Below are positions 46,309 through 62,150 of a DNA stretch of 64,000 nucleotides, piece by piece. The first letter of the stretch is position 1. Every line of letters starts with the position of its first letter. The position numbers and the translations under genes are program-made. The stretch is from positions 12,684,501 to 12,748,500 of the forward strand of contig OX485805.1 of NCBI GenBank assembly GCA_950295325.1, given 5' to 3'. Below the pieces are notes generated by a model. That model ran no database searches, was not told the origin of the DNA, and was given only the letters and a program-made list of their open reading frames with translations. Source of the DNA: Polytrichum commune. Lineage: Eukaryota > Streptophyta > Polytrichopsida > Polytrichales > Polytrichaceae.

Positions 46309-48846
46309 TCAGCGAGCTTCAATGGAGACATTAGACATACGGCTCGTGAAAACCACAGTAGACTCCCACTCCAAGGACGCGGCCAACATTTTCGACAGCG
46401 CATATGTGATGTCTTTCATGGTTGGACGCAACGCTGGGTCAGGATCGACGCAAGTCTTCGCCAAGCTTGCAACGCTGTAAGCTATGTCAGGAGGATAGGC
46501 ATTCTGTAGCCGCGGATCCATCCAGGCCTGCAGCTGCGGCATCTGATTCTCACCCTCGAGAACCTCGAAAACCATCAATGACAACATTTGGTCCTTCCCT
46601 CCACTGTCTTGCTTCACAATGGCCTCCTCACCAGAAAGCAACTCCAGAAGCACCACTCCGAAAGAGAAGACATCCACCTTGGTTGTGACCAAGCCGTGCT
46701 CAAGATACTCTGGCGCCATGTACCCCTGCGTTCCAACGATGTGGTTTGTGAGCATTGGGCCTGCCCCAGACATGTTGGCAGACTTCGCCATCCCAAAGTT
46801 GGCCACCTTCGCCCGGAAATTCTCGTCCAGAAGAATGTTGCTGCTCTTCACATCCTTGTGCACAAAGCTAGGGTTTGTGTAATTGTGGATATACTCCAGG
46901 CCGGAAGCCACATCTAAGGAGATTTGCACCCGTTTTGTCCAGGGCAACAATCCAACAGACCTGGAGAAATTGGAGCTTGGATTTGCAACTTGATAGTGCA
47001 GGCAATCACTGAGTGATCCATTTTCGGCGTACTCGTACACAAGGAAGACGTTGCCGGCATTGTTTGCGCATATTCCAACAAGCCGCACCTGAAGTGAAAC
47101 AAAAAATCAGTAGGGTTACATAACCATTGCAACCTTCATGTAAGCAAAGCAGAGAATATTTCCTCTCTTGATATTTCTATGTGTCCTCAGAGCAAGACAT
47201 TAAAGTTATCCTCTAACTCAACATGACATTTAGATGGGAGTTGGTTGTTTTGCATACAATACCTTCCATGCTAAGTAAGTTTGCAGTGCATTGCTTGGAG
47301 TTACTGTGGAGATTTGAAAGAAGAACATTCTATATCGCTTCATTGAGGGTCAAACTCATTTTGGCATGTGAGAGGTGCTAAAATGAGTTTGGCCCTCAAT
47401 GAACTGAAATAGGTTAGTCTTCATTCGGATTCAAACACTACCACGAAGCATGCACCATCACAAGTGGAAAGAAATTACTGATATTATATGCAAAACAATG
47501 AATGGAACATCATGGGACGGAAAGTCCCATTGAGTTAAGGCTCAACTCTATTGATGCTGGTGTCGAGAGGAATCTGGACAAGAAAATGAAAATCAGGCAT
47601 TTGCCAAAAGGCTTACCACATTGCCATGATGGACTTGTGAAAGAATTTTCAGCTCCTGTGTCATATTTCCCTTCATCTGTTTGATGGCCACAAGCGTCCC
47701 CTGCAATTTGCCGAAGTAGACAGACCCTTGAATCCGGCTGTCATCGCTGAAATTGTTCGTGGCATGCTGCAACTCCTCATATGTAAACACAGTGGGCTTA
47801 TCGCTGCCCATTACATCAGACATGTTAGCAAGGAATCCAGTCTCAAGGCTCGAGTTCATCGAGTCCTGATGATTCTGCAAACCAATTAGAGCAGCATCCT
47901 TCTTCAAGCTCCTCTGGCTTTCATGCTGCGATCTGGCATTCTTTTGTCTTCGACGCGTGACCAACACAAGAAGAGCTCCAAAAACAGCTGCTAGAACCAT
48001 TCCAAGGACTCCAACTGCGATGCCAATGTACAAAGGCGTGTTGGATGCACTCTTCGTTACCGTTGCACCTGTAGAAGCAGAGCTGTTATTGTTACTGCTT
48101 GTGGGAGGGGGAGGTGGGGATGGGGAGGTTGGAGAAGGATAGACGAACGAGATAGCGCTCAAAGCTTTGCGTGCTTTGAGAGGTATCAGAAATGTCGAGA
48201 ATGCCTGCAGGACAGTGGTGGCGGTCACGTTGTTCGCAGCTTCCAGGTCTGCAAGTGAATTACCGAAGTAGCCACTCATAATTCCCAAAGTTTCTTGCGG
48301 GAATATCACATATGTAAGCAGCAGGTTAGTTCCATTGGCTGTCTGTGAAGCTGAAGGACAAGCACAACGCAGGGGCACATCGAGCACCTGACCAACTTGA
48401 AGACCATTTGGCAAGTAAGCAGGATTCGCTGCCTCCATCGCCTGGTAGGTTGTCAAACCCTCATATGTGTTGTTGGCGAGCGCAGAGTAAGTGTCAAGTG
48501 CAACAACCTTGTGTGTCACAGTTCCACGGTATGTGCCATTCGTGCAGCCACATGAGAGTTTGATGTACAAAGCTGTCTTCGCAGCCAGAGCGGCGGTCGT
48601 CAAGTTCATCCCACTGTCCCTGGCCACCTCCGCTGCCGTAAGGTTGAAAATATTACCAACTGTTGCAAAAGTTTCCTGGCTGCTCTGCGTCCTGTATATG
48701 GCGTATGTGGTGCAAGTCAGGTTTTGCCCTGTGCACGCATAGCCGTTAACGTCGTTGTACGATTGCTGTGCACTCGCTCCGTGGGAGAGTCCAAGAGCAA
48801 TCATCACCACAAGAACAACTCCATAAATCGGTGACAAGATCTCCAT
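46309..48846 (-). CDS. LysM receptor-like kinase, LYR type, pseudokinase
   Basis: A predicted plasma-membrane receptor for chitin or lipo-chitooligosaccharides; these are the known ligands of the LYK/LYR family, and the actual ligand is unknown. Exon 1 is 48846-47617 and exon 2 is 47088-46309 (GT-AG, phase 0, intron 528 bp), giving 669 residues. Signal peptide about 1-26 (ending ASA/QQS). Three LysM domains follow (about 37-98, 105-160, 175-225), separated by the family's CxC pairs (CGC 99-101, CAC 161-163). Then come a Pro/Ser linker, a transmembrane segment 272-297 and a kinase-like domain about 365-640. Lys389 (VAIK), Glu398, HKD (487-489) and APE (535-537) are present. The P-loop has lost its first glycines (IQGSVYFG), and DFG is NFG (507-509), which predicts weak or no phosphotransfer, as in NFR5/LYR receptors. 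Such receptors usually signal through an active LYK partner; none is in this window. Confidence 0.95.
47202..47549. mobile_element. AGAGTTATCC fold-back MITE, copy B2, in kinase intron
   Basis: 348 bp inside the intron 47089-47616, from AAAGTTATCC to a degraded GGCTCAACTCT, flanked by a 3-bp duplication ATT (47199-47201, 47550-47552). The interior matches copy B1 at 32.2 kb (GGGAGTTGGTTGTTTTGCAT, AAGAACATTCTATAT, CCCTCAATGAACTG). It makes up two thirds of the intron. Confidence 0.88.
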
Positions 48847-49090
48847 CTCCGAAACTCCACCGACGAGAATTCAACCTCGTGGTTGTTCCAGACTCTCACT
48901 CCTTCAACAAGAGATGCTTACCCTACCATCCCATCCGAACGTCAACGTGCCCAAGGCAATTTCGCCAAACCCTGAAGCTGAAGCCGTACGCTGTTCCTCC
49001 AACCACGGGCCGAGGTTACAGGTTTCTGCAACACACATCCACAGAGTTTTTGCAATCAGCTCCCCTTTATATTTTCAAACTTGTGCTGGT
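48847..49090 (-). promoter_or_regulatory. 5' leader of LysM kinase, conserved with paralogue
   Basis: The leader contains a splice-donor-like GTAAGCATCTCTTGTTGAAG whose G is at 48921, 75 bp upstream of the ATG. The equivalent site (GTGAGCATCTCTTGTTGGTA) lies 101 bp upstream of the paralogous LysM gene. A short 5' UTR intron is possible. Confidence 0.5.
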
Positions 49091-50100
49091 GCATATTTAG
49101 TACTGATCGGCAGGAACTGTACATGCCCATTATAGGGGTTTTATGAAATGTTTCTTGGCTACCTCTCCACGAATTCATCCAAGCATTAGAATTAAATCGT
49201 GACAGAGAGATGGACCCGGTTTTCCTCGCTACCATCCTCGTCTTAATCAATTACCGACTACACACTCTAAGTAAGAAGGTTGAAGGTTTAGATCAAAAAT
49301 GCTTTAGAGCAGCTACAGAAGTACTTACGAAGGAACGCTAAGTCCTGTTTCAACAAAGGCTTGCACTCAAGGTATCCAAAACTTCAATCTTCCCTTAAGA
49401 AACCCCCTTGCAAAAATCCTCAATTCAGCCTTGCCGCACAATCTATAAAACAGAGAGAGCAAAGCACCTTAGTACATACCCCCCCAAGAATGCACACAAT
49501 TTTCAAAACCCTAAACCTCGCGTATCTCTCCGCACAAATGACTGCGAAACTGCCAAGTTTGGAGGACTCTCCGCCCCGACAAATTCTGGTCGAAAAAAGC
49601 CTACTTCCGACAGAAAAGGAGAAAACAAAATACAAGCTACGGAATCACACCCGCCCCGAGAAAATTCAGCCTACGCCTTCAATTACCTTCCGTAAGCATC
49701 TCCGAATCAGTGAGCTTGTTGCCTCCCCGTTTCAACTCCTCTTGCAGCTGGCTACCGGATTCAACCCTCAACCTGCCACCCGTTACGAGCTCTGACCGCA
49801 GCAGATAGAAATCAAAATTGAAAATCGCAGTCTCGGCCCAGTCTCGGATTCGGTGTAAGTTCATGGTCGCGATCGATAAAACAAAGGATTGTTTGAGCTC
49901 AGCGGGAGGGTTTCGGGGAAGAAGCTTGGGGAGAGGAGAGGTGGACTGTGTTGACTGACCAACATCAGTCCCCCCTAACATTACGCAGCCTCAACCCTCT
50001 TCAATACCGGGTGGCCGGGCTTAACACCGGTTGGCCGGGTGACCGGGTTCAATACCGGTTGGCCGGTGCAGGGACTCGGGCTCTGGTGAAGATACAATAG
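49091..50100. other. Upstream region of LysM kinase; GGCCGG repeats
   Basis: Promoter-side sequence. W-box TTGACT at 49951-49956 lies within a 14-base block shared with the paralogue's upstream region. At 50005-50075 there are three imperfect copies of ACCGG(T/G)TGGCCGG. The 144-residue open frame at 49361-49795 (+) overlaps frames in both other registers and has no recognised domain, so I do not call it a gene. Confidence 0.45.
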
Positions 50101-50804
50101 GTCCCCTAAAGGTAAGCAAGGCTTAAATGGACAATGTTCTCTCCGCCCTTATTTCTTGTAGGATATGAAACACACAAATTAGTGCAAGATGATTAGCAAA
50201 TCCAAACCTCATGACTGTAGGGGGCACTTTCTTTACAAACATTTCTCAGAGTTTGTATGAATGTTATGCTCATTGCCAAAGTGATCATATTGGTTTCCCT
50301 CCATTCTTGTTGATTGTTGCATCTGGAATAGTGAATGGATTTTGAAGACATTGGCAGTCTTTTTTGAAGATATGTATTTTTGGTGTCCGTTCTTAGATTC
50401 ACATCCAATCATACACCACTCAAATATAAGGGATGCAAGCGTTTATATCGACGTTGCAACATCTATGTGATCTTGGTTCAACACCCTTCCGATGAAGCTT
50501 TTGCGCAAGTGGATGTGGCATTCTCCCATTAGACCTAGCCCCAATCGGACAACAAAGATTAAGTCTACAAGAATTGGGGAATTGTATTAGAACAAGGGTA
50601 GTGCATATTGCTCATGAGCAATGGATGGGTTGAGTTACCAACAAAAATCCACAACTAAGAACAACAAGTGATGCAATTCATATTCCAAAAAGCCCCCCAA
50701 AAAATGTTAGTCTTAAACCCTCTATCGCTTACCTATGTAAGTGACAAGGAAGGTGGTTTGGATCCTAGGCACAGAATATGAGTACCACAAGATCATGGTC
50801 ACCA
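50101..50804. other. No gene seen; dispersed repeat fragment
   Basis: 50230-50440 is a reverse fragment of the 25.2-26.0 kb family (CACATCCAATCATACACCAC). Confidence 0.45.
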
Positions 50805-52034: not shown

Positions 52035-52089
52035 TACCTTGGTAATACGAGTGTGAAAAAAGGTCCGTTCACCAACAATCACATAAGAG

Positions 52090-52315
52090 CAGTGATCGGG
52101 GAAATTTTTGGGCATCACCGGATGAGATCCTAATGTTTGCAAATCCAACCGGTTACATGTTGACATCCTCCGATTTTCCTTTACTAAATTGGGATACATT
52201 CTACAAATTCCTCTAAAATGATCGATAATTTTCATGCAGTCTTGAACTTCAACCGGTTATTTCTCAAACTCAACCGGTTCATTTGTAACTAACTGCCGGT
52301 TCTCCCCTATCATAG
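52090..52315 (-). mobile_element. hAT-type MITE, copy 7, with 8-bp TSD
   Basis: 226 bp, CAGTGATCGGGG to CCCCTATCATAG, flanked by an exact 8-bp duplication CATAAGAG (52082-52089, 52316-52323). Nearly identical to the copy at 59471-59696. Confidence 0.95.
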
Positions 52316-52323
52316 CATAAGAG

Positions 52324-55300
52324 CCCTATTAACTCTTCTAACATAAGATGATTATTAAAGTGATTGGAAAGGCACGGTGAGGGAGGGGGGGGGGGGTCAT
52401 TGAAAGTCTATGTTGGAGATTTGTTTTCCCGAGGACAAGTACAATCCTACGGCCATACCCATCATTAAGGAACTTGTACAAGGCAATTGCAAGTTAGTCC
52501 ACGGTACTATTACTTCAAGAGTGAGTCAAGATCCCCAGCCGGGCCATATATGACATGAAGAATGGTTAAACAATACGGACTTATCTTAGAATACGTTACT
52601 TGGAGTTGATGGAGTTGACAAAGGAACCTACCGTTATAAGGAGCTATGGTTTCCGGGCTAGAGGTTAACTCTTCCATTGGGAAAGTGAAATTGCATTGAA
52701 CAATTTCAAAAACTGAATTTCTTAGAGTATGATTTTGGTATTGGCAATATGACCCTCAAATTGCTTTAGTAAAGCTCAATTAAAGTGAATTGGCTCTCAA
52801 ATTATACGGGGTTTGGTTTGATTACAACCCTTTACATCCTTGATGATATATGAGTTTGAATAGACACCATGAAACCCCAACGTGATGTGTGTCACATCAA
52901 AAAATAAATGATCGGTTTGGGGGTTGAAGAGCTTTCCAAACAGTTTATGGAGTTCTTACATTAGCACAATGGTGTCAAAAGCAAGCAATAAAGTAGCAAT
53001 CCAACACATTGGTTGTTGTCAATGTCGATAATTACTATACAGAATCATTGGACACGAGGAGTAAAATTGTCTATCAATTTCACTCCATAAAGTAAAAAAA
53101 CCTCTATCCACCATCTTCCTTTTGAATAGAAATTGGTCATGTATGTTCGGCTCTCTTATAAACGAAAAAGAAAAAGAAAAAGAAAAAGTATTTGGTATGA
53201 AGAGAATCGAACTTATGCATAATCACGTGAACACAATCTCACCACCTGATATTCATGTCTTTAATATGATCTTTAGCTAACTAGATGCTTTGTAGATTTT
53301 GATAAGCTCACAATTGACAAGATAACTAGATGATTCATCAAGGATTTTTGGATCATATTCTCATGCAAAACAACACTAAGGTTTATTTATATTTTTCTCA
53401 ATCTCCAAGCAACTCCATTGGTAATGAAATCATGGTATGATGGTTTACATATTGTCATGGCCCAGGTTTCAAATATTTGTTCCAAATTGTAATGTTACAA
53501 TGTTCGGAGCAAGGAAATATATGCCCTTGTGACAATTAAGTGTTTTGTGCCCACAATATATTACATTACTTACCACTAATGCATGTATTAGTAGGGGGTG
53601 GAACATGTGAAAGATACACTTAAAGTGTCAGTTGTGGGGATGGAAAATACTGCAAACCACCTTAAAACGATTTCTAGATAAGAGTTCGAGTGGGGGGAAA
53701 GTTGAAAGTTCCTTGACATGCAAGCTCTTTCTCAAGACCTCGTTGTCGCAAGACATCAAAAACTTTATTGTTCTTGAATCTATAACTTCAAACTTCCAAC
53801 AACTATATCATCTATGCTACCCAACATTAAAGTTTATAAATGAAAAATTATGGATAAAGATGTGAAAGGGTCCACATGATATTCAAAGTTGAAGAATAAT
53901 GTAGATTCTTTGAATGTATTCTTTGAACGTCCAAGTGAATTACACATTTTAGTCTAGTCACAAAGTTAAGACATTCAACAAGGCTATTGCAACAAAAGTG
54001 CACATATGATGTAATCATGTTGATTTTGTGGGCCACTAGTGGAGATGGCTTACAAAGAAGATCATGGCAACAAACTCAAGTAGCCGCATACTATGAAATC
54101 GTACTACATAAAATGTCAACCACAAGTATGGGAAACTTTCAATCCACACAAGCATCATAGATTTGGTCAAAACTTTGGGCATTCAAAGGATAGCACGTGA
54201 ACCTCATCTCTAAAACCTATCCACAAACTACTAGTATACTGCATGACCCACATCATTCATCATCGACCACCTAGTACATGATTTTACAATTACTATGTGG
54301 CAACTAGAGAAGATGGCATGATAAGTCATGAATGTTACTTTTATCAATGTGGAATATTAGTTTTTAATACAACCATGCATACATAATTTTGAGGTACTTA
54401 GCACAAATGATTTTTGGACTCCCAAAATGTCTGGTTTTAATTAATTAATTTTTCTATGTAGATGCATATTCACTTGTTCTCGGGTTTCCATTCTCAAATG
54501 CCAAGTTGGCATAAAAGGTTGAGATTGGCTTACGTTTGATCCTCAAATTGGCATGATGTTGGCGCAACACACACATATGTGCTAGTCCATTCTTTTGAAG
54601 GTTAGTTCCGACAAAGTTATGAATGGCATATGAGTTGCCACAATGTACTTAACAACATGGTGTATCTAGTCTAGGTATATCTTGAGTACTTACAATTTGC
54701 TTCAAGAAACCCTAGAGCATAGGGTGAGCTTCTTGAATTCAAAATGAACGAATGTGTTTTGTTTTGTTTTGTTTTGTTTTTCACAAGGTAAAGTAGAGGA
54801 TGCTTAAACCAACCTTTTGGCTAATGTAACCTATATATAGCATCATGCTCGTATAAGTGAAGGCATAATTGACTTAGCAAATGAAAGCACATTGCCATAA
54901 AAATGAATATTTACACACAACATGAATATTGTAGGCAAATGTTTTTTCACAACATGCACTAGCTTCTCCATGTTAGATTGTAGGGTGTCCTTGACCAGGC
55001 CATTGAGTAGTTGCAAAGTAAGTCGCATATAATAATATTCCTTCTCTTCCTAGCTTTTTCTCATCCCATTTTATCCCAACTAGTCTCTTAGAGCCTTATT
55101 GTGAGCCCTCCCTCAGGCACTCCACATACTATTGTTGAGCCAAATAGTTAGCACAAGGTGACATAAGGCTTAATAAAGGTACAATAATGGGAGGTGGGTA
55201 TAGGAGGGCAAAACTTGGTAGGGATAGCGATTTTCAACTTGGCCTTGCACTAGTGATTGGCAATCTAAAAAATACTTTTTTTTTTTACAATTATCACATG

Positions 55301-55500
55301 ATGTTGTGGATGAATTAGCCCAAATATCCGTTAAAATCATTAAAACTTAGATGAATGTGTATGATTTGGATGAAATTTATGTATTCATGCATATGTGGCT
55401 TCGTCACTCCAATGTTTGTAGCCAATGCTCCTCTCTTGAATATTTGAAATAAAAAGCACTGGGTAGGGGATGGAAGTAGTATCTAGCTACCTCAATTGGT
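52324..55500. other. No gene seen; simple repeats
   Basis: A 3.2-kb AT-rich spacer. It holds a 12-G run near 52385-52396, (GAAAAA)n at 53164-53188 and (GTTTT)n at 54756-54781. Open frames (53632-53865, 54843-55028 and others) have no recognised motif. Confidence 0.45.
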
Positions 55501-56305
55501 TTCATGATGAATGACCTTCTACACGGCATTTTTAACACTATTGGAATTTAACCCCACAACAAGATTCATGCATTCCTGTAACAACAACAACAACAACATT
55601 GTTGAGGTCTACATGTCCAGTTGTGAGTACTGGCTGATCGATGCATTTGATACTCAATTGGATGCTCCGATACAAAGAAGATTCACGACAGGGCCTGTCA
55701 CCACACTCTCTGAAACTACCTTTTTTTTTTTTTTTTGGACAGAAGGCCAACCTCTGAAACATTCTTAACTTCACAAACATAATGCCTTATAATTTGCTGA
55801 AAGCAAGAAATATGTGCCCTTTTCAGGCTAGCAGTAGCAGCCATCGCCGGCCCACATCAGATATAGCTTATTATACATGTTTGAATCCCTAGAATCCTTC
55901 CCCAAAAAGCGCCTAACTGCGACGCCCACATACAAAAGGCGTACAATATACTGTGCTCAAAAAGCTGCAACTTCTAGTCCCCAAGACTCCACCAACCTAC
56001 GAAGGCATGACATTTGCGAGCTAAAATCGTAGCTTTTGACTCCCAATCAAAAGGCGTCCCAACTGGGACGCTGATATACAAATGACCTCCCTCATCAGAT
56101 GAGATGAGACTTATTATCATGTTCTTCAGAAACCGAGAATTGTCATTCCGAAGCCGCCATCTGCACCGCCAGACATACATAGGCTTGACATAGTTTGGGA
56201 GCTCAATCGTTCTTGGTATCGAATTGAATCCAAACGCCAACAGACACCGGCACGCGGTCAACTAGACCTCCCTCGTTAACGAGCATCATCTTGTCGACAC
56301 GCTCA
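55501..56305 (-). repeat. Degenerate tandem repeats of a LysM-gene 3' segment
   Basis: Downstream of the LysM paralogue the - strand repeats GAGGGAGGT with about a 180-bp period (56274-56266, 56093-56085). Each copy is followed by a transmembrane-like piece: VPVSVGVW (near 56240), then ISVPVGTPF (near 56060). A further piece, LLYVGVAV, lies near 55935. They resemble the hydrophobic segments of the two LysM genes (VPLCVSIGVSVFG; PLYIGIAVGVLG). Bases 55501-55890 otherwise hold short (AAC)n and poly-T runs. Confidence 0.55.
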
Positions 56306-57214
56306 CTAGAAGCCGAAGCCGGAAACCATTGCCCCAAAAACACTGACTCCGATGCTAACACACAAAGGCACGGTGAAGGTCGCGACCTTCGTTGCCGCCG
56401 CTGACGACGGCGGCGAGGGTGTGGGCACGGGCGTCGTGGACGAAGACCCAGCACCGCTGCCGGTAGAGTTCAAGTTGATGGAGCTCAACGGAGGCAACGT
56501 GGTGAATGGCACAAGCAGTGTCGTGAAGGCTTGCAACTGTGTGCTGTTCACATTGTTCGCGGCCTCTATCACGTTGGTCGTGACATTGAAGTGGCTGGCG
56601 ATTGCCGCCAAAGACTCTTGCGGGCGAACGACGTATGTGAGCAACAGCGTGGTCCCGCTGTTTGTCTTCTGAGAAGCCGTTGGACACGCACACCGCAGGG
56701 GCACGTTCAACGTCGCGTTGACCTGGATGTCAATTGCCGGAACAGTCGGGTTCGCGGCCTCCATTGCTTGGTAGGTCGTCAAATTCTCGTAAGTCACTGT
56801 GGAAATTTTCGAGTAAGTGTCGCCTGAAACGACCTTGTGGCCCACGGATCGGGAGTAGGTTCCATTCGAGCAGCCACATGCGAGGCGGATGTACAAGGGG
56901 GTTTGGGACGCCAGGGCTGTCGTCGTCAGGGTCTTGCCGCTGTCCATGGCGACGTCTGCGGCCGTTAGGTTGAAGAGAGCACCAACGCTGGTGAATGTCT
57001 CTGTGGCGTTCTGCGTCTTGTAAATCGCGTAGGCTGTGCACGTGAGACTTTGCCCATTGCACACGTAGCCGGTGACGTTGTTGTAATCTTGCTGCGCATT
57101 CGCTGTGTGGAAGAATCCACTGAGGGCAAGCGTCACAACAACAACTGTGTAAATCGGTGAGGCAAAGGCGCGGCTCTGCTGCTGCTGCTGCTGCTGCCTC
57201 CTGAAGGTCGCCAT
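56306..57214 (-). CDS. LysM receptor-like protein without kinase, likely GPI-anchored
   Basis: A 302-residue single-exon paralogue of the ectodomain of the LysM kinase at 46.3-48.8 kb. A Gln run (about 7-13, from CAG repeats) precedes a signal peptide core (about 21-38, cleavage near ANA/QQD). Three LysM domains follow (about 50-112, 118-174, 190-238) with the CGC (113-115) and CAC (175-177) pairs. The Ser/Thr/Pro-rich linker (246-275) leads to a hydrophobic C-terminus (277-302) ending GFGF just before the stop. A hydrophobic tail with no cytoplasmic residues fits a GPI-attachment signal, as in LYM/CEBiP-type chitin co-receptors. Alternatively it is a kinase gene truncated in its membrane segment. 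The ATG at 57214 matches the start region of the paralogue and two upstream fossil copies. Many N-glycosylation sites (NxT/S). Confidence 0.88.
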   Translation of the reverse strand: MATFRRQQQQQQQSRAFASPIYTVVVVTLALSGFFHTANAQQDYNNVTGYVCNGQSLTCTAYAIYKTQNATETFTSVGALFNLTAADVAMDSGKTLTTTALASQTPLYIRLACGCSNGTYSRSVGHKVVSGDTYSKISTVTYENLTTYQAMEAANPTVPAIDIQVNATLNVPLRCACPTASQKTNSGTTLLLTYVVRPQESLAAIASHFNVTTNVIEAANNVNSTQLQAFTTLLVPFTTLPPLSSINLNSTGSGAGSSSTTPVPTPSPPSSAAATKVATFTVPLCVSIGVSVFGAMVSGFGF

Positions 57215-57500
57215 TGCCGAAGTAGACTAATGCGGAGGCAAAACTTGTTGTGGAAGGAAGGGTGTAGTGTCCTCGAATCAACCACACTCTTACTCTACCA
57301 ACAAGAGATGCTCACCCTAACCTCCTGTCACTCGGCATTACCGTAGTGATCTGCACGCCACCACACATACACACAGATAGGGTTAATTTATGCAGTGAGC
57401 CCCATCCTTTCACATTTCAATGGTGACTCTACCATCTGTGAAGAAAAGCATCCTGTGTGTAGTCTTGGTGCGCTTCTAATCCTGGTTGAAACAAATGGAA
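57215..57500 (-). promoter_or_regulatory. 5' leader of LysM paralogue (unit A)
   Basis: A donor-like GTGAGCATCTCTTG whose G is at 57315 and an ATTAG acceptor-like site 13 bases before the ATG suggest a short 5' UTR intron of about 90 bp. The same donor context occurs in units B and C and in the LysM kinase leader. Confidence 0.45.
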
Positions 57501-58240
57501 CTCTTGAAGATCGCCATTGCCGAAATTTGATCGAAGGCAATCCTGTGGTTGCTGCAGCAAGGAATTAGTGTCACCGAGTCAACCACACTACGAGCCTTCG
57601 AACAAGCGAATCTCACCCTAAAATTTCATCACTCGGCATTACCGCCCAACTCTGTAGCAGTACGACTCCCTCCTCTGCAACACGCGCGCACACACACACA
57701 GAGGGTTAATTGATGCAAGAAGCTCCAGACTTACAAGCTTAAATTTCAATGGTGACTCTACTATCTGCGATCCACCCCGTCACTGTGAAGAAATACATGT
57801 GTCATCCTGGGTGCGCATCTAATTCCGATCGGAAGAAATGGGGCTACATCGGTGAAGCAAAGGTGCGGCAACTCTGCTGCTGCTGCTTCTTGAAGATCTT
57901 CATTACCGAAGAGATATACTAATCTCGAGGCAAAGCTTGTGGAAGGAAGAATTCCCGAATCAGCCACAATCTAACGCCTTTAACAAAGAGATTCTTACCT
58001 TAAAATCCTATCAAGACGTCACAGCCCTGTGCACTACCGCCGAACTCTGTAGCAGTACGGTTCCCTACAAGCGACAGGAAATCTAAAGTACAAACAGACA
58101 GACAGGCAGAGTAAATTTTATACAAATAAGCTCCCTGTCGCATTTCAATCGTGACTCTACCACCTGCGACCTCTCCACTGTGAAGAAAAGCACTGGTGCG
58201 CATCTAATTCGAATCGGATGGAAATGGAGCTGGGCCAATC
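57500..58240 (-). pseudogene. Two tandem fossil copies of LysM start region (units B, C)
   Basis: Unit B (about 57503-57850) and unit C (about 57844-58240) repeat the leader of the LysM gene. Shared blocks: CATTTCAATGGTGACTCTAC/CATTTCAATCGTGACTCTAC, ACTGTGAAGAAA, TCGGCATTACCG, AACTCTGTAGCAGTACG. Unit C keeps an ATG at 57903 and 19 codons (MKIFKKQQQQSCRTFASPM, stop TAG 57846-57844) clearly homologous to MATFRRQQQQ...FASPI. Unit B keeps an ATG at 57517 (MAIF...). Conserved donors lie at 57616 and 57998. Confidence 0.88.
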
Positions 58241-59462
58241 TTTGGGCCCGTCACAAGTATGTAACCCTATTCGAAGTACTATTCCGGTGTCTTAGTGAAT
58301 GATCGAGACTCAGAGAGATTGCACCACCTTGGCCCTTGAACGGAGATTGTTGCACCTGGATGGTACCCTCATTGCCATCTTTGTCTTACTCGATGAGTAC
58401 AAACTACATACTGCAGGCACGAAGCTCGAATCATGTCTATATTGAAAATGCTTCTAGACCCGCCGAGTACAAGCAAGTCGAGCTTATAAACTCTCACGAA
58501 TGAACCTTCCAGGGCGACCCAGAAATTCGATCTTTTCTTCAGCAACACCCATCATCCCGATTCGACATGTCGAAGCGAAAACAGTAACAAAGCTCACAGC
58601 ACCATTCCGTTGCAACAATCGACCTTAAAATTCTTCCAGCAACAAGACAGACACAAAAATTTTTTTGCACAGATGTTCCTCACCAAACACTCCAAAAGTC
58701 ACCCACCCCTCAGTAAACTGGCACTTGAGGAGGACTTAAATGCCGCCAAGACCGACAGACCGATATGTTAAAAAGATTCAAACACCAAACTCACCTTCAC
58801 AAACCTCCGAACAAACTCAACCAACAAATGTGCCCAGCCCAACCTCTCTCTCTGCGTGCTCCCGCATCTCCAATCAATGATCCGAGGCTCCAATTCAACC
58901 GCTAATGACTGGCCACAGATTTTCAACCCAAGCTGACGACGACGACGACAACAACAACAGCAGCAGCTGCAGGGAGCCACTACAGCAGCAGAGAGTAGAA
59001 TTCTATTAAACATGCACCACTGGAGTGGCTATTGAATGATGATGGTCTTGGTCACAATAAATGATTAAAGGAAGGATTTGTGGAGCCCGGCCGGTCGGGA
59101 GCAAAGCCAAGTTCGGCGAAGAAGACGAAGCAGCTCATGATGATAATGAAAGACTGTGTTGACTGGCTCTGTGTGGCTGAAATGTACATGATGGGTACAT
59201 ACTCCGACGTGGCCATCGGTAAGTAAGTGGAGGGGTCAAATGGAAAGGGAGCCATTCTAGAAAGAGAGAAAAACTAGGCTCCACACTTAAACAGTAGTCT
59301 GTGTGTGGATAGTAGTGTCATACTATAATCACTTTTTTTATGATACGGATTCGGACTCGGAGGTAGTGGACGTAGTAGGTGCCATATTTAAGCCTCTATT
59401 TTAGGGTTTGATTGCATAAGGGTCAGGGTCCGGGTCCGGGTCCAAAAACACACACACGCACA
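58241..59462. other. No gene seen; distal upstream region of LysM paralogue
   Basis: Contains the shared 14-base W-box block at 59152-59165, trinucleotide runs near 58934-58968 and a short GGGTCC repeat near 59426-59442. Open frames at 58768-59013 and 59052-59255 (-) have no recognised domain. Confidence 0.45.
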
Positions 59463-59470
59463 CCGCAAGG

Positions 59471-59696
59471 CAGTGATCAGGGAGATTTTTGGGCATAATC
59501 GGTTGAGATCCTAGTGTTTGCAAGTCCAACCGGTTACATGTTGACATCTTTCGGTTTTCCTTTATCAAATTGGGGTATATTCTATAAATTCCTCTAAAAT
59601 GATCATTAATTTTCCTGCAGTCTTGAACTTCAACCGGTTATTTCTCAAACTCAACCGGTTCATCTGTAACTAACTACCGGTTCTCCCCGATCATAG
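59471..59696 (-). mobile_element. hAT-type MITE, copy 8, with 8-bp TSD
   Basis: 226 bp, CAGTGATCAGGGAG to CTCCCCGATCATAG, flanked by an exact 8-bp duplication CCGCAAGG (59463-59470, 59697-59704). Confidence 0.96.
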
Positions 59697-59718
59697 CCGC
59701 AAGGTATGTGGGTGTTAG

Positions 59719-62150
59719 GGCCACTTCACACACGAGCCAAGGGCCATGACCATGGAATGGTGAGGGCCTTTGACTATCATCCAAAGGCCATACCATGGGT
59801 GTTAGGCTACCCATTGTGTGTGGGGAGGGGTCCTCAAACATAGTGTGAAGTGAGAATGGACCATGTTGAGGGACCGTTGCATATTTTATTTATTATTGGG
59901 AAAAGAGGGGCAATCCTACCTCACTACCTACATATCTTCATTCTCTTCTTTTTTTCACTTTCTTTTTGAAATTTACATCGGTGAGGAAGGAAAAGAGAGC
60001 ATGATGGATCGTATTGAGAGAAGAGGGAAGATTCTTATTGCATTGGCTTTATATTGGTGGTTGCACATGATTGTGAAACATGTGCTTGATATGCAAGCAT
60101 TGGCACTCAATGGAGAATGGGAAAATGCCTTGATTTTGAGCATTTGCTTTGAGGGTATAAGATGAGCAGTCGTAGTGTGTGGGCATTTGAAAGAAATGTA
60201 GGGTTCACCGATAGGTTACTATTGGGTTATTTTACGGAAAAAAATGTTCAAACAAAGGACTTGTGTATGTCACAACACATTCAAGTTTCTTTGTGAGATG
60301 TTAGGTCCATATTTGCAGAGAAATAATGCATATATGAGAGAGACAATTTTAGTTGAGAGAAGAACTGCAATGTCATTACAGAGGCTTGGGATTGGAAATA
60401 CTTTGTGTACTATACGAGAGGTATATGGGGTGGTTGAAAGTAAAAATTTAGATATAGTTAGGAATTTTTGTAGATTGGTAAGAGTGCATTTGCAAGAAAC
60501 TTTTATACAATTTCCAAGTCCAACTCGGTTTAGGATTTTAGTTCAAGAATTTGAGGCCCTTCATGAAATTCCTCACATTATAGGAACAATCAATCGATCT
60601 CGCATTCTGATCATTGTACTTGTAATTGGAAGAGAGAATTATTATTGTAGAAAACACATTTCATTCGGCTTTATTGCAAGATATAATAAATACAAAATGT
60701 GTTTTTTGGGATTACGAATTTGGATGGGTAGAAAGTTTGTACAATTGGACATTGTTTCAATTGACAAAAATTGGAAAAATTGCATTACAGACAAATTCTT
60801 ACTTTATAAGCTTATTGGAAATTGTGCATATCCAATATGGCCGTGAATTTACAGCCCATTTAAAAGATATGCAAAAGATTTAGAAGGCTTACAAGGTTAC
60901 AAAGCAAATTTTGAAAGTTCTACTTGTATGTTGCGTACCTCTCCATGAGGAGTGTCCGAAACACCATGGGCACAAGGGGGACTCCGGAGTGACACTTGGG
61001 ACTTATGACGCCGTTGGTGAATGGGCCCAAATGATCATAGTGTGGGCGAGGGCCCCGGGCGCCGAAAGTGTCTCCCATCCATAGAGACTAGGAGGCACGA
61101 GGATAAGGCCATGAGCTATGCTTAGCTTATGGCGTGTAAATTCTAGAATGTTCAAAAACACCTCAATCGGAGGTCTGAGCTAGAAGATATGGCAATTTGA
61201 GTGGGGCGTTGTCCCGGGACATTGCCCTGGTGCATCAGTGGCCTAGAAGTGATTCCCGGGACTACCAAGATTTGAACATGCATAACTTCCTCAATACTTG
61301 TCTGAATGGAGCAAGTGAGATTTCCATTAGCATCTACGTGAAGCGTAAATGAAGATGGAATGGTCGCTTGTTAGCATCAGATATTATATAAGGAAGTTAT
61401 GATGGTCTGAAGTTGCTGGGGGCTTCTAGCTCCAACGGCTAAGGGAAAATGTCTACTTGGCTCCAACTCTTGGTAGAGAGACAAAAGGTTTCTTGACGAT
61501 GGTGTAGGGGCCCTTAAAAAATCCTAGAGGCTTACATTGGTGAGGTGGTGTGGCCTCACCCACCCGAGGCCGAATGGCATGGCCTCCATGGGCTTTGGTC
61601 CAATGTGAGGGCATAGTTGCCTAATACGATTCGGGTTGTTATAGTGTTGCTCCGGCTATGCGATGATCAACATAAGATTGGATTTTTATAGATAGAAGTC
61701 CACATCTAAGAATCGGCTATCGATTAAGAGGATGAGTTCCAAAAGCAAAATAGAAAGGTTGGTTTTCCTCTTATGAAGTATAAGGTCCTGGGTAGGAGAA
61801 GCTAATCATTAGCATGGCAGAATGTGAACGGTTAGCGTTCATGCCCCTTGCTAGAAATGAAAATGGTCAAGATGGTTAAGGGGAATTAGCAAGGGTTGCG
61901 ATATCGTATCTATGTAAAACATGCTTTCAGAATCTTAAAAGACAGATGGTGAATCATTATGAGAAGAATTGATATACCATTACGGCATATGGCTGATATA
62001 GTTGCTACATGTATTGTACTACATAATATGTGTACAATTGGAAATAACAAATTTGATATGTAATGGATAATAGAAATAGAGAGAATATTAAATAGACGTA
62101 TAAATAGTAGATTATTGAAAGAAAAAAAGAAATAAGGGTTGAATTAATAG
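59719..62150 (+). pseudogene. PIF/Harbinger transposase fossil, interrupted
   Basis: An end motif GGCCACTTCACACACG at 59719 (after TTAG) matches the MITE at 23.35 kb. The N-terminal region (about 60001-60165: MDRIERRGKILIALALYWWL, VLDMQALALNGEWENAL) stops at 60163-60165. Another frame (60244-60846) has CHNTFKFLCEMLGPYLQR, MSLQRLGIGNTLCTIREVYG and FQ-like ETFIQFPSPTRF, and the frame then shifts near 60640 to HSALLQDIINTKCVFWDYEF, the DDE region of Harbinger (DDE_Tnp_4) proteins. After a 979-bp insert the C-terminal part resumes at about 61916 (MRRIDIPLRHMADIVATCIV, LHNMC) with in-frame stops. At least two frameshifts, three stops and one insertion make it inactive. The right terminal repeat was not found. 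Confidence 0.88.
60932..61910. mobile_element. 979-bp insertion in Harbinger fossil, solo-LTR candidate
   Basis: The transposase homology breaks off at 60931 and resumes near 61916, flanked by a 5-bp duplication TATGT (60927-60931, 61911-61915). 5-bp duplications are typical of LTR retrotransposons. The insert starts TG but ends TC instead of CA, is more GC-rich than its host and has no open frame, so a decayed solo LTR is the best but unproven reading. Confidence 0.6.

Follow-up and report, generated by a model that had tools for sequence, protein, structure and literature searches.

The DNA analyzed here (the window) is a stretch of 64,000 nucleotides of the Polytrichum commune genome; it lies on C3, one of the seven large contigs (C1-C7, 78 to 42 Mb) of the 408 Mb in 64 contigs that were searched. 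On the minus strand at positions 56306-57214 it carries a LysM gene without a kinase, a single open frame of 302 codons plus TAG whose product begins with a signal peptide, continues with three LysM domains and a Pro/Ser/Thr linker, and closes with 26 uncharged residues running to GFGF and the TAG. The signal peptide (residues 1-40, including seven consecutive glutamines; 57095..57214; all features of this gene are on the minus strand) has a best 12-residue Kyte-Doolittle (KD) mean of 2.49, and its predicted cleavage, between ANA and QQ, is taken from alignment with the ASA and QQ of the neighbouring LYR. LysM1 (residues 58-115; 56870..57043) matches PF23446 (LysM1_NFP_LYK), LysM2 (residues 124-174; 56693..56845) matches PF23472 (LysM2_CERK1_LYK3_4_5) and LysM3 (residues 191-236; 56507..56644) matches PF23473 (LysM3_LYK4_5), all over the Pfam cut-off, with an additional match of LysM3 to PF01476 at 194-236. 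The six ectodomain cysteines (52, 59, 113, 115, 175 and 177) align with the cysteines of LYR and LYM ectodomains whose structures are solved, and a seventh (285) lies in the tail. This tail, the former membrane segment, comprises residues 277-302 after K276 (56309..56386, with the TAG at 56306-56308), and a rule-based listing gives S270-A273 (56396..56407) as candidate GPI attachment residues. Both the frame and the Pfam domains agree with the original prediction, made from the letters, of a kinase-less LysM paralogue with a 26-residue tail and a stop directly after GFGF.

The kinase-less gene is a tandem paralogue of an LYR receptor gene, of a type known to sense fungal chitin, that spans 46.3-48.8 kb; the kinase-less gene lies upstream of this neighbour on the same strand. 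Exon 1 of this neighbour occupies an open frame at 47593..48846 (minus strand; the exon finishes short of the stop of its frame) and contains the signal peptide, three LysM, the membrane segment and the start of the kinase, the rest of which is encoded by exon 2 (46309..47106, minus strand; Pkinase E 1.1e-34). Active kinases carry HRD and DFG; the neighbour's kinase is LYR-type and pseudokinase-like, with HKD and NFG and without a glycine-rich loop (read by eye). The distance between the genes had been put at 7.5 kb and measures 7.46 kb to the neighbour's start codon (48846). Similarity of the two is strong (tblastn E 5.5e-79), and the collinearity of their ectodomains, likewise predicted, extends from the mature N-terminus into the membrane segment with 144/254 aligned residues identical; it is claimed at the protein level because the DNA alignment places compensating one- and two-base gaps in the ectodomain.

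When the kinase-less protein was used as a tblastn query against the whole genome, seven matches were obtained at E up to 0.01, four of them LYR-type ectodomains (the kinase-less gene itself, the neighbour, and one each on contigs C7 and C4) and three in CERK1-type genes. A LysM profile search gave 17 matches, which beyond the LYR-type comprise LYK exons and LysM-only frames that look intracellular. Two near-identical LysM-only frames 11 kb apart on contig C3 (7998590-8013091; L003, L006) look like a recent tandem duplicate. Of the four LYR-type ectodomains, two are joined to an LYR kinase, the kinase-less gene to none, and that on C4 is followed by a different, canonical kinase. The neighbour and the C7 LYR are built alike, with ectodomain, membrane segment and kinase start in one exon and the remainder of the kinase in a second, and their second exons are 72% identical; among the best candidates only, the next full-length kinase match, a general receptor kinase, falls to ~40%, and two short CERK1-type exons match the neighbour's second exon at 60-61%. 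It is this drop from 72% to ~40% on which the count of two LYR kinases for four LYR ectodomains is based. At the C4 locus (L026 3323-8560, plus strand, about 60.3-65.6 kb of contig C4) an LYR ectodomain and membrane segment are followed within ~300 bases on the same strand by canonical receptor-kinase exons (GEGGYG, VAVK, HRDIK, ADFG and APE; best solved kinases PBL2, BRI1 and BAK1), making it a candidate for a kinase swap or for an adjacent cytoplasmic-kinase gene.

Sequence comparisons give good support to the kinase-less gene being a truncated LYR, outside the LYM/CEBiP lineage. Its Pfam subfamily profiles are of the NFP/LYK4/5 kind, and among solved structures it matches LYR ectodomains best (lowest E 1.8e-27), followed by AtCERK1 (2.4e-15) and OsCEBiP (5.4e-11). 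Over the ectodomain and membrane segment 111/257 residues are shared with C7 and 97/244 with C4, while C7 and C4 agree with each other at 144/251; a codon quartet (203 codons) prefers the topology (kinase-less, neighbour),(C7,C4) by 94.6 log units over either alternative. In a 14-row protein tree, flagged by the tree tool for long branches that meet, the kinase-less gene is grouped with all LYR rows (support 97/95) and pairs with the neighbour (support 83/87). The rows include solved LYR and LYK ectodomains and one LYM (9gxf, 9h6v, 9h3b, 6xwe and 7vs7 were excluded); among the genome's three LYK-type genes, the one on C7 was excluded and that on C2 entered by its exon 2 only. A tree joining the neighbour, C7 and C4 without the kinase-less gene is 11.5 log units worse and not rejected (p-AU 0.117); it is contradicted by the codon quartet and by the upstream homology described below. 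Since the kinase type and the position of the intron are the same in the neighbour and in C7, the kinase is ancestral and was lost in the kinase-less gene.

The build of three LysM domains, no kinase, a hydrophobic C-terminal tail and a possible GPI signal is also that of the LYM/CEBiP proteins (OsCEBiP, AtLYM1-3, OsLYP4/6), and on this ground the gene might be taken for a true member of their lineage. That reading is scarcely credible: the subfamily profiles are LYR-type, identity to CEBiP is 31% compared with 57% to the neighbour, upstream sequence is held in common with the neighbour, and pairing with CEBiP in the tree, where one LYM row on a long branch represents that lineage, was rejected (p-AU 0.019). 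No counterpart of the cysteine-rich C-terminal stretch of CEBiP was found in the kinase-less gene by comparison with OsCEBiP. LYMs are described as having 3-4 introns behind the LysM part and LYRs 0-1 introns (PMC6207691); the kinase-less gene is a single open exon, unbroken from LysM3 to the stop, and the neighbour and C7 each have one intron, in the kinase. With OsCEBiP as a query of the genome 12 matches were returned at E up to 10, seven over the LysM part, all in known LYR/LYK loci, and five over the C-terminal part with E above 1; thus no LYM-type gene was found by the rice query, which a divergent LYM could escape. In the moss Physcomitrella an earlier survey describes a LYP, assigned to its clade II, that has no predicted GPI anchor (PMC2728734). 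The proposal that the gene is a truncated receptor kinase, reached by a route apart from LYM/CEBiP, is well supported by the Pfam profiles, the tree and AU test, the codon quartet, the upstream sequence and the lack of a LYM-like match to the rice query, and in the LysM phylogeny the gene nests within the LYRs, away from CEBiP.

The kinase-less gene stays homologous to the neighbour across the linker and into the membrane segment (PLCVSIGVSVFGAMV in the kinase-less gene vs PLYIGIAVGVLG-MVL), where the homology ends. Beyond the membrane segment the alignment is no better than that of shuffled sequence (77 of 500 shuffles as good); in the 3 kb downstream compared with the neighbour's kinase region, one of 12 slices beats its shuffle maximum (36.8 vs 33.8), and in the comparison with the neighbour's 3' flank none of six does. 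An origin of the stop by frameshift, attractive in the DNA alignment, was dropped, as sequence behind the membrane segment aligns at shuffle level, and for the same reason only a break point is claimed. Within the DNA at 54800-56310, matches elsewhere in the genome (best 40 of 265 candidates) occur only from ~55473 down to 54801, a part that looks repetitive; for the first ~830 bases behind the stop no other genome match was found among the same best candidates. The membrane span followed by a kinase-like domain without a glycine-rich loop that marks an LYR is lacking, the stop lying within the membrane segment and no kinase having been found downstream. The comparisons establish LYR descent, a missing kinase and a break in the membrane segment. 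That the gene model is instead incomplete, its exon being spliced to a distant membrane-kinase exon such as the neighbour's, is very improbable. The kinase-less gene does lie upstream of the neighbour on the same strand, and long introns are possible in plant genes; however, the neighbour and C7 hold ectodomain, membrane segment and kinase start in one exon, no kinase remnant was found downstream with nine exon queries (best minus-strand match at 49.0-56.3 kb, E 3.0), and the minus-strand open frames at 52513-52755 and 55977-56261 match no Pfam family.

Upstream of the kinase-less gene, six of six slices compared with the neighbour's upstream sequence score above their shuffle maxima, with pieces 71-82% identical in local alignment, a procedure that favours conserved pieces. 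An upstream module of the neighbour (~48850-49083) occurs three times before the kinase-less gene, in each case on the minus strand: a proximal copy at 57282..57325 (36/44 identical to 48888-48931), a second at 57520..57740 (84/110 and 43/53 identical, to 48849-48978 and 49025-49082) and a third at 57964..58153 (129/177 identical to 48888-49083), beside which stands a copy of the start-codon region with a CAG run (57845-57911). Because two of the three module copies in 57150-58170 keep the start-codon region, the 5' end of the gene has been duplicated twice more. More distally, 58340..58603 (minus strand) is collinear with 49202-49468 of the neighbour (135/183 and 71/100 identical). Together with the end of homology in the membrane segment, these matches indicate a duplicated unit that began at least 0.6 kb ahead of the neighbour's start codon and extended as far as the membrane segment. 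Another stretch upstream of the neighbour, at 50152-50292, shares a block of ~130 bases with sequence upstream of the C4 LYR (L026, about 1754-1884; score 94 vs shuffle maximum 44), probably a dispersed repeat, with an old promoter element as the alternative. Upstream likeness by itself is therefore no proof of kinship; the match between the kinase-less gene and the neighbour is collinear with the gene start.

The codon evolution of the two genes is that of an old duplicate. At fourfold sites 50/79 differ (63%) compared with 29% at codon positions 1 and 2. Synonymous change approaches saturation, and a single omega for the whole tree is 0.128. Freeing omega on the kinase-less branch gives 0.34 (2 x 1.91 log units, p about 0.05), and freeing it on the neighbour branch instead gives 0.47, so the split between the two sister branches is poorly determined. 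With synonymous lengths free, omega 1 on the kinase-less branch is not rejected (lnL -2618.53 vs -2618.00, 0.53 log units); with equal synonymous lengths on the sister branches, omega comes to 0.19, and fixing it at 1 costs 23.7 log units. In simulations of 2000 runs each, modelling substitutions only, the frame stayed open in 12% at 0.1, 2.6% at 0.18, 0.5% at 0.3 and 0.05% at 0.5 changes per site, and in none at 0.9. Given equal synonymous rates, these comparisons indicate long-term constraint on the ectodomain, which has probably been under constraint, perhaps relaxed, for most of the time since the duplication. By its fourfold divergence the kinase-less gene is old, yet its ectodomain frame is intact and its upstream blocks are still recognizable.

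These results bear on whether the gene could be a functionless truncated duplicate whose frame is open by chance, or one truncated recently. The gene is, after all, partial, and neutrality stands when synonymous lengths are free; against this are the cost of omega 1 under equal lengths, the rarity of an open frame in the simulations at 0.3 changes per site or more (though not at 0.1), the excess of fourfold over first- and second-position differences and the identity of the locally aligned upstream blocks. Recent truncation of a long-constrained gene is made somewhat less likely by the absence of any detected kinase remnant in the 7 kb downstream. A pseudogene is consequently improbable in our estimation. 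The pseudogene alternative that the original prediction had set against itself is made unlikely by codon evolution, with the reservation that neutrality is rejected only if the sister genes have equal synonymous rates.

A run of 21-24 uncharged residues at the extreme C-terminus, preceded by a small-residue site, is typical of GPI signals. By such rules the attachment residue could be S270, S271, A272 or A273 (SSAA), followed by a spacer of 6 residues and by 21-24 hydrophobic residues at the end (KD mean 1.65-1.82), a rule-of-thumb fit that weakly suggests a GPI signal. The best 19-residue KD mean of the tail is 1.89 compared with 2.79, 2.48 and 2.92 for the membrane segments of the neighbour, C7 and C4, and no basic residues stand behind it. 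The tail could also be a plain membrane anchor, or could fail as one so that the protein is secreted. AlphaFold2 on a two-row alignment of both window proteins gave no usable model (mean pLDDT 43). A secreted or weakly anchored decoy, whose tail is no GPI signal and whose ectodomain in the wall binds the ligand or LYK partners and damps signalling, is unlikely although not negligible: the lower hydrophobicity relative to three paralogues speaks for it, as does the dominant-negative action possible for receptors without kinase (discussed for MpaLYR and ERECTA in PMC12184373), whereas the uncharged C-terminal residues after a small-residue site look like a GPI signal by the rule above. Sequence alone does not separate the two kinds of tail.

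The explanation that we give slightly better than an even chance is that tandem duplication and truncation turned an LYR into a co-receptor or decoy that has no kinase and is held by a GPI anchor. An LYR-type receptor gene would have been duplicated in tandem along with its promoter, and one copy would have come to be without everything past the middle of the membrane segment, whether at the duplication end point or by later deletion, with an immediate stop. The remaining product would be a secreted three-LysM ectodomain, in which the former membrane segment, having no stop-transfer basic residues, would act as the GPI signal at the C-terminus and direct attachment near S270-A273. The anchoring, ligand, partner and sign of effect that we infer are then as follows: once mature, the protein would be attached to the plasma membrane from outside, LysM2 would bind chitin-type oligosaccharides, and signalling would depend entirely on a partner, either a CERK1-type LYK or the neighbouring LYR; alternatively, the protein would compete with these as a decoy. 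The protein is probably exposed at the outer surface of the cell and has no signalling part itself; like LYM/CEBiP proteins, which bind chito-oligosaccharides or peptidoglycan, it is expected to need a LYK partner. A liverwort LYR has nM affinity for chito-oligosaccharides and is required together with a LYK for calcium signalling; kinase-less receptors are discussed in the same paper as possible dominant negatives (PMC12184373). CEBiP binds chitin via LysM2 with a critical Ile given as I122/I150 (PMC6207691, section 12). I163 of the kinase-less protein aligns with the LysM2 Ile at chain position 121 of CEBiP, where the three paralogues have leucine; if position 121 is the critical residue the match would bear on chitin binding, and it is only a hint. 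A kinase-less LYR ectodomain held at the surface could take the role of CEBiP in rice, or compete with intact LYRs.

Kinase-less receptor-like proteins are in themselves common. The present gene resembles LYR receptors (AtLYK4/LYK5, MtNFP, LjLYS11 and the liverwort MpaLYR) in ectodomain architecture and sequence, six-cysteine pattern, signal peptide, intron-free ectodomain and LYK4/5-type LysM3 profile; unlike them it has no cytosolic kinase-like domain, and its membrane segment is shortened with the stop right behind. From LYM/CEBiP proteins it differs in its lineage in the tree and in the unmatched C-terminal part of CEBiP. The gene appears to represent an independent origin of a kind of receptor that other plants are known to have. 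Partial LysM-RLK genes arising from duplication and loss are in print, namely the truncated PaNFP2 orthologues of Trema and peach, called likely non-functional (PMC6207691), and LYK-II of Marchantia polymorpha, without an ectodomain (PMC12184373); in contrast to these, the kinase-less gene keeps a whole ectodomain. Among the literature matches listed, with subscription papers mostly outside that scope, no kinase-less, GPI-tailed LYR was found; truncated or uncertain proteins were excluded from the trees of PMC6207691, as its text describes them, and kinase-less LYR genes may therefore have been passed over there. LysM receptor-like proteins are seen in that source as an old lineage in which LysM and a GPI tail were joined independently of the kinase forms (PMC6207691), and a 350-genome survey did not decide whether ectodomain-only or kinase-less forms gave rise to LysM receptor kinases (PMC10834447). 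The present locus is a case of the reverse direction, and a polarised one: a kinase receptor became a surface protein lacking the kinase, and the break fell in the membrane segment. More tentatively, and with less than an even chance, a CEBiP-like chitin co-receptor with a GPI anchor may have arisen anew in a genome where no LYM gene was detected, the cut of an LYR in its membrane segment making a GPI signal in one step; with the C4 locus, the LYR ectodomain would then have been re-tailed repeatedly in one lineage. If confirmed, the locus would offer a direct test of how a GPI-anchored co-receptor arises in one step and of whether signalling requires the kinase-like domain of LYRs.

Two further elements lie in the vicinity of the genes. 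A repeat of 228 bases, 91% identical between its copies at 52089-52316 and 59470-59697 and rich in AACCGGTT-like words, precedes each of the LysM genes. On the plus strand at 60202-60843 there is an open frame of 214 residues with no Pfam match at E up to 0.05, which we take to resemble a decayed transposase.
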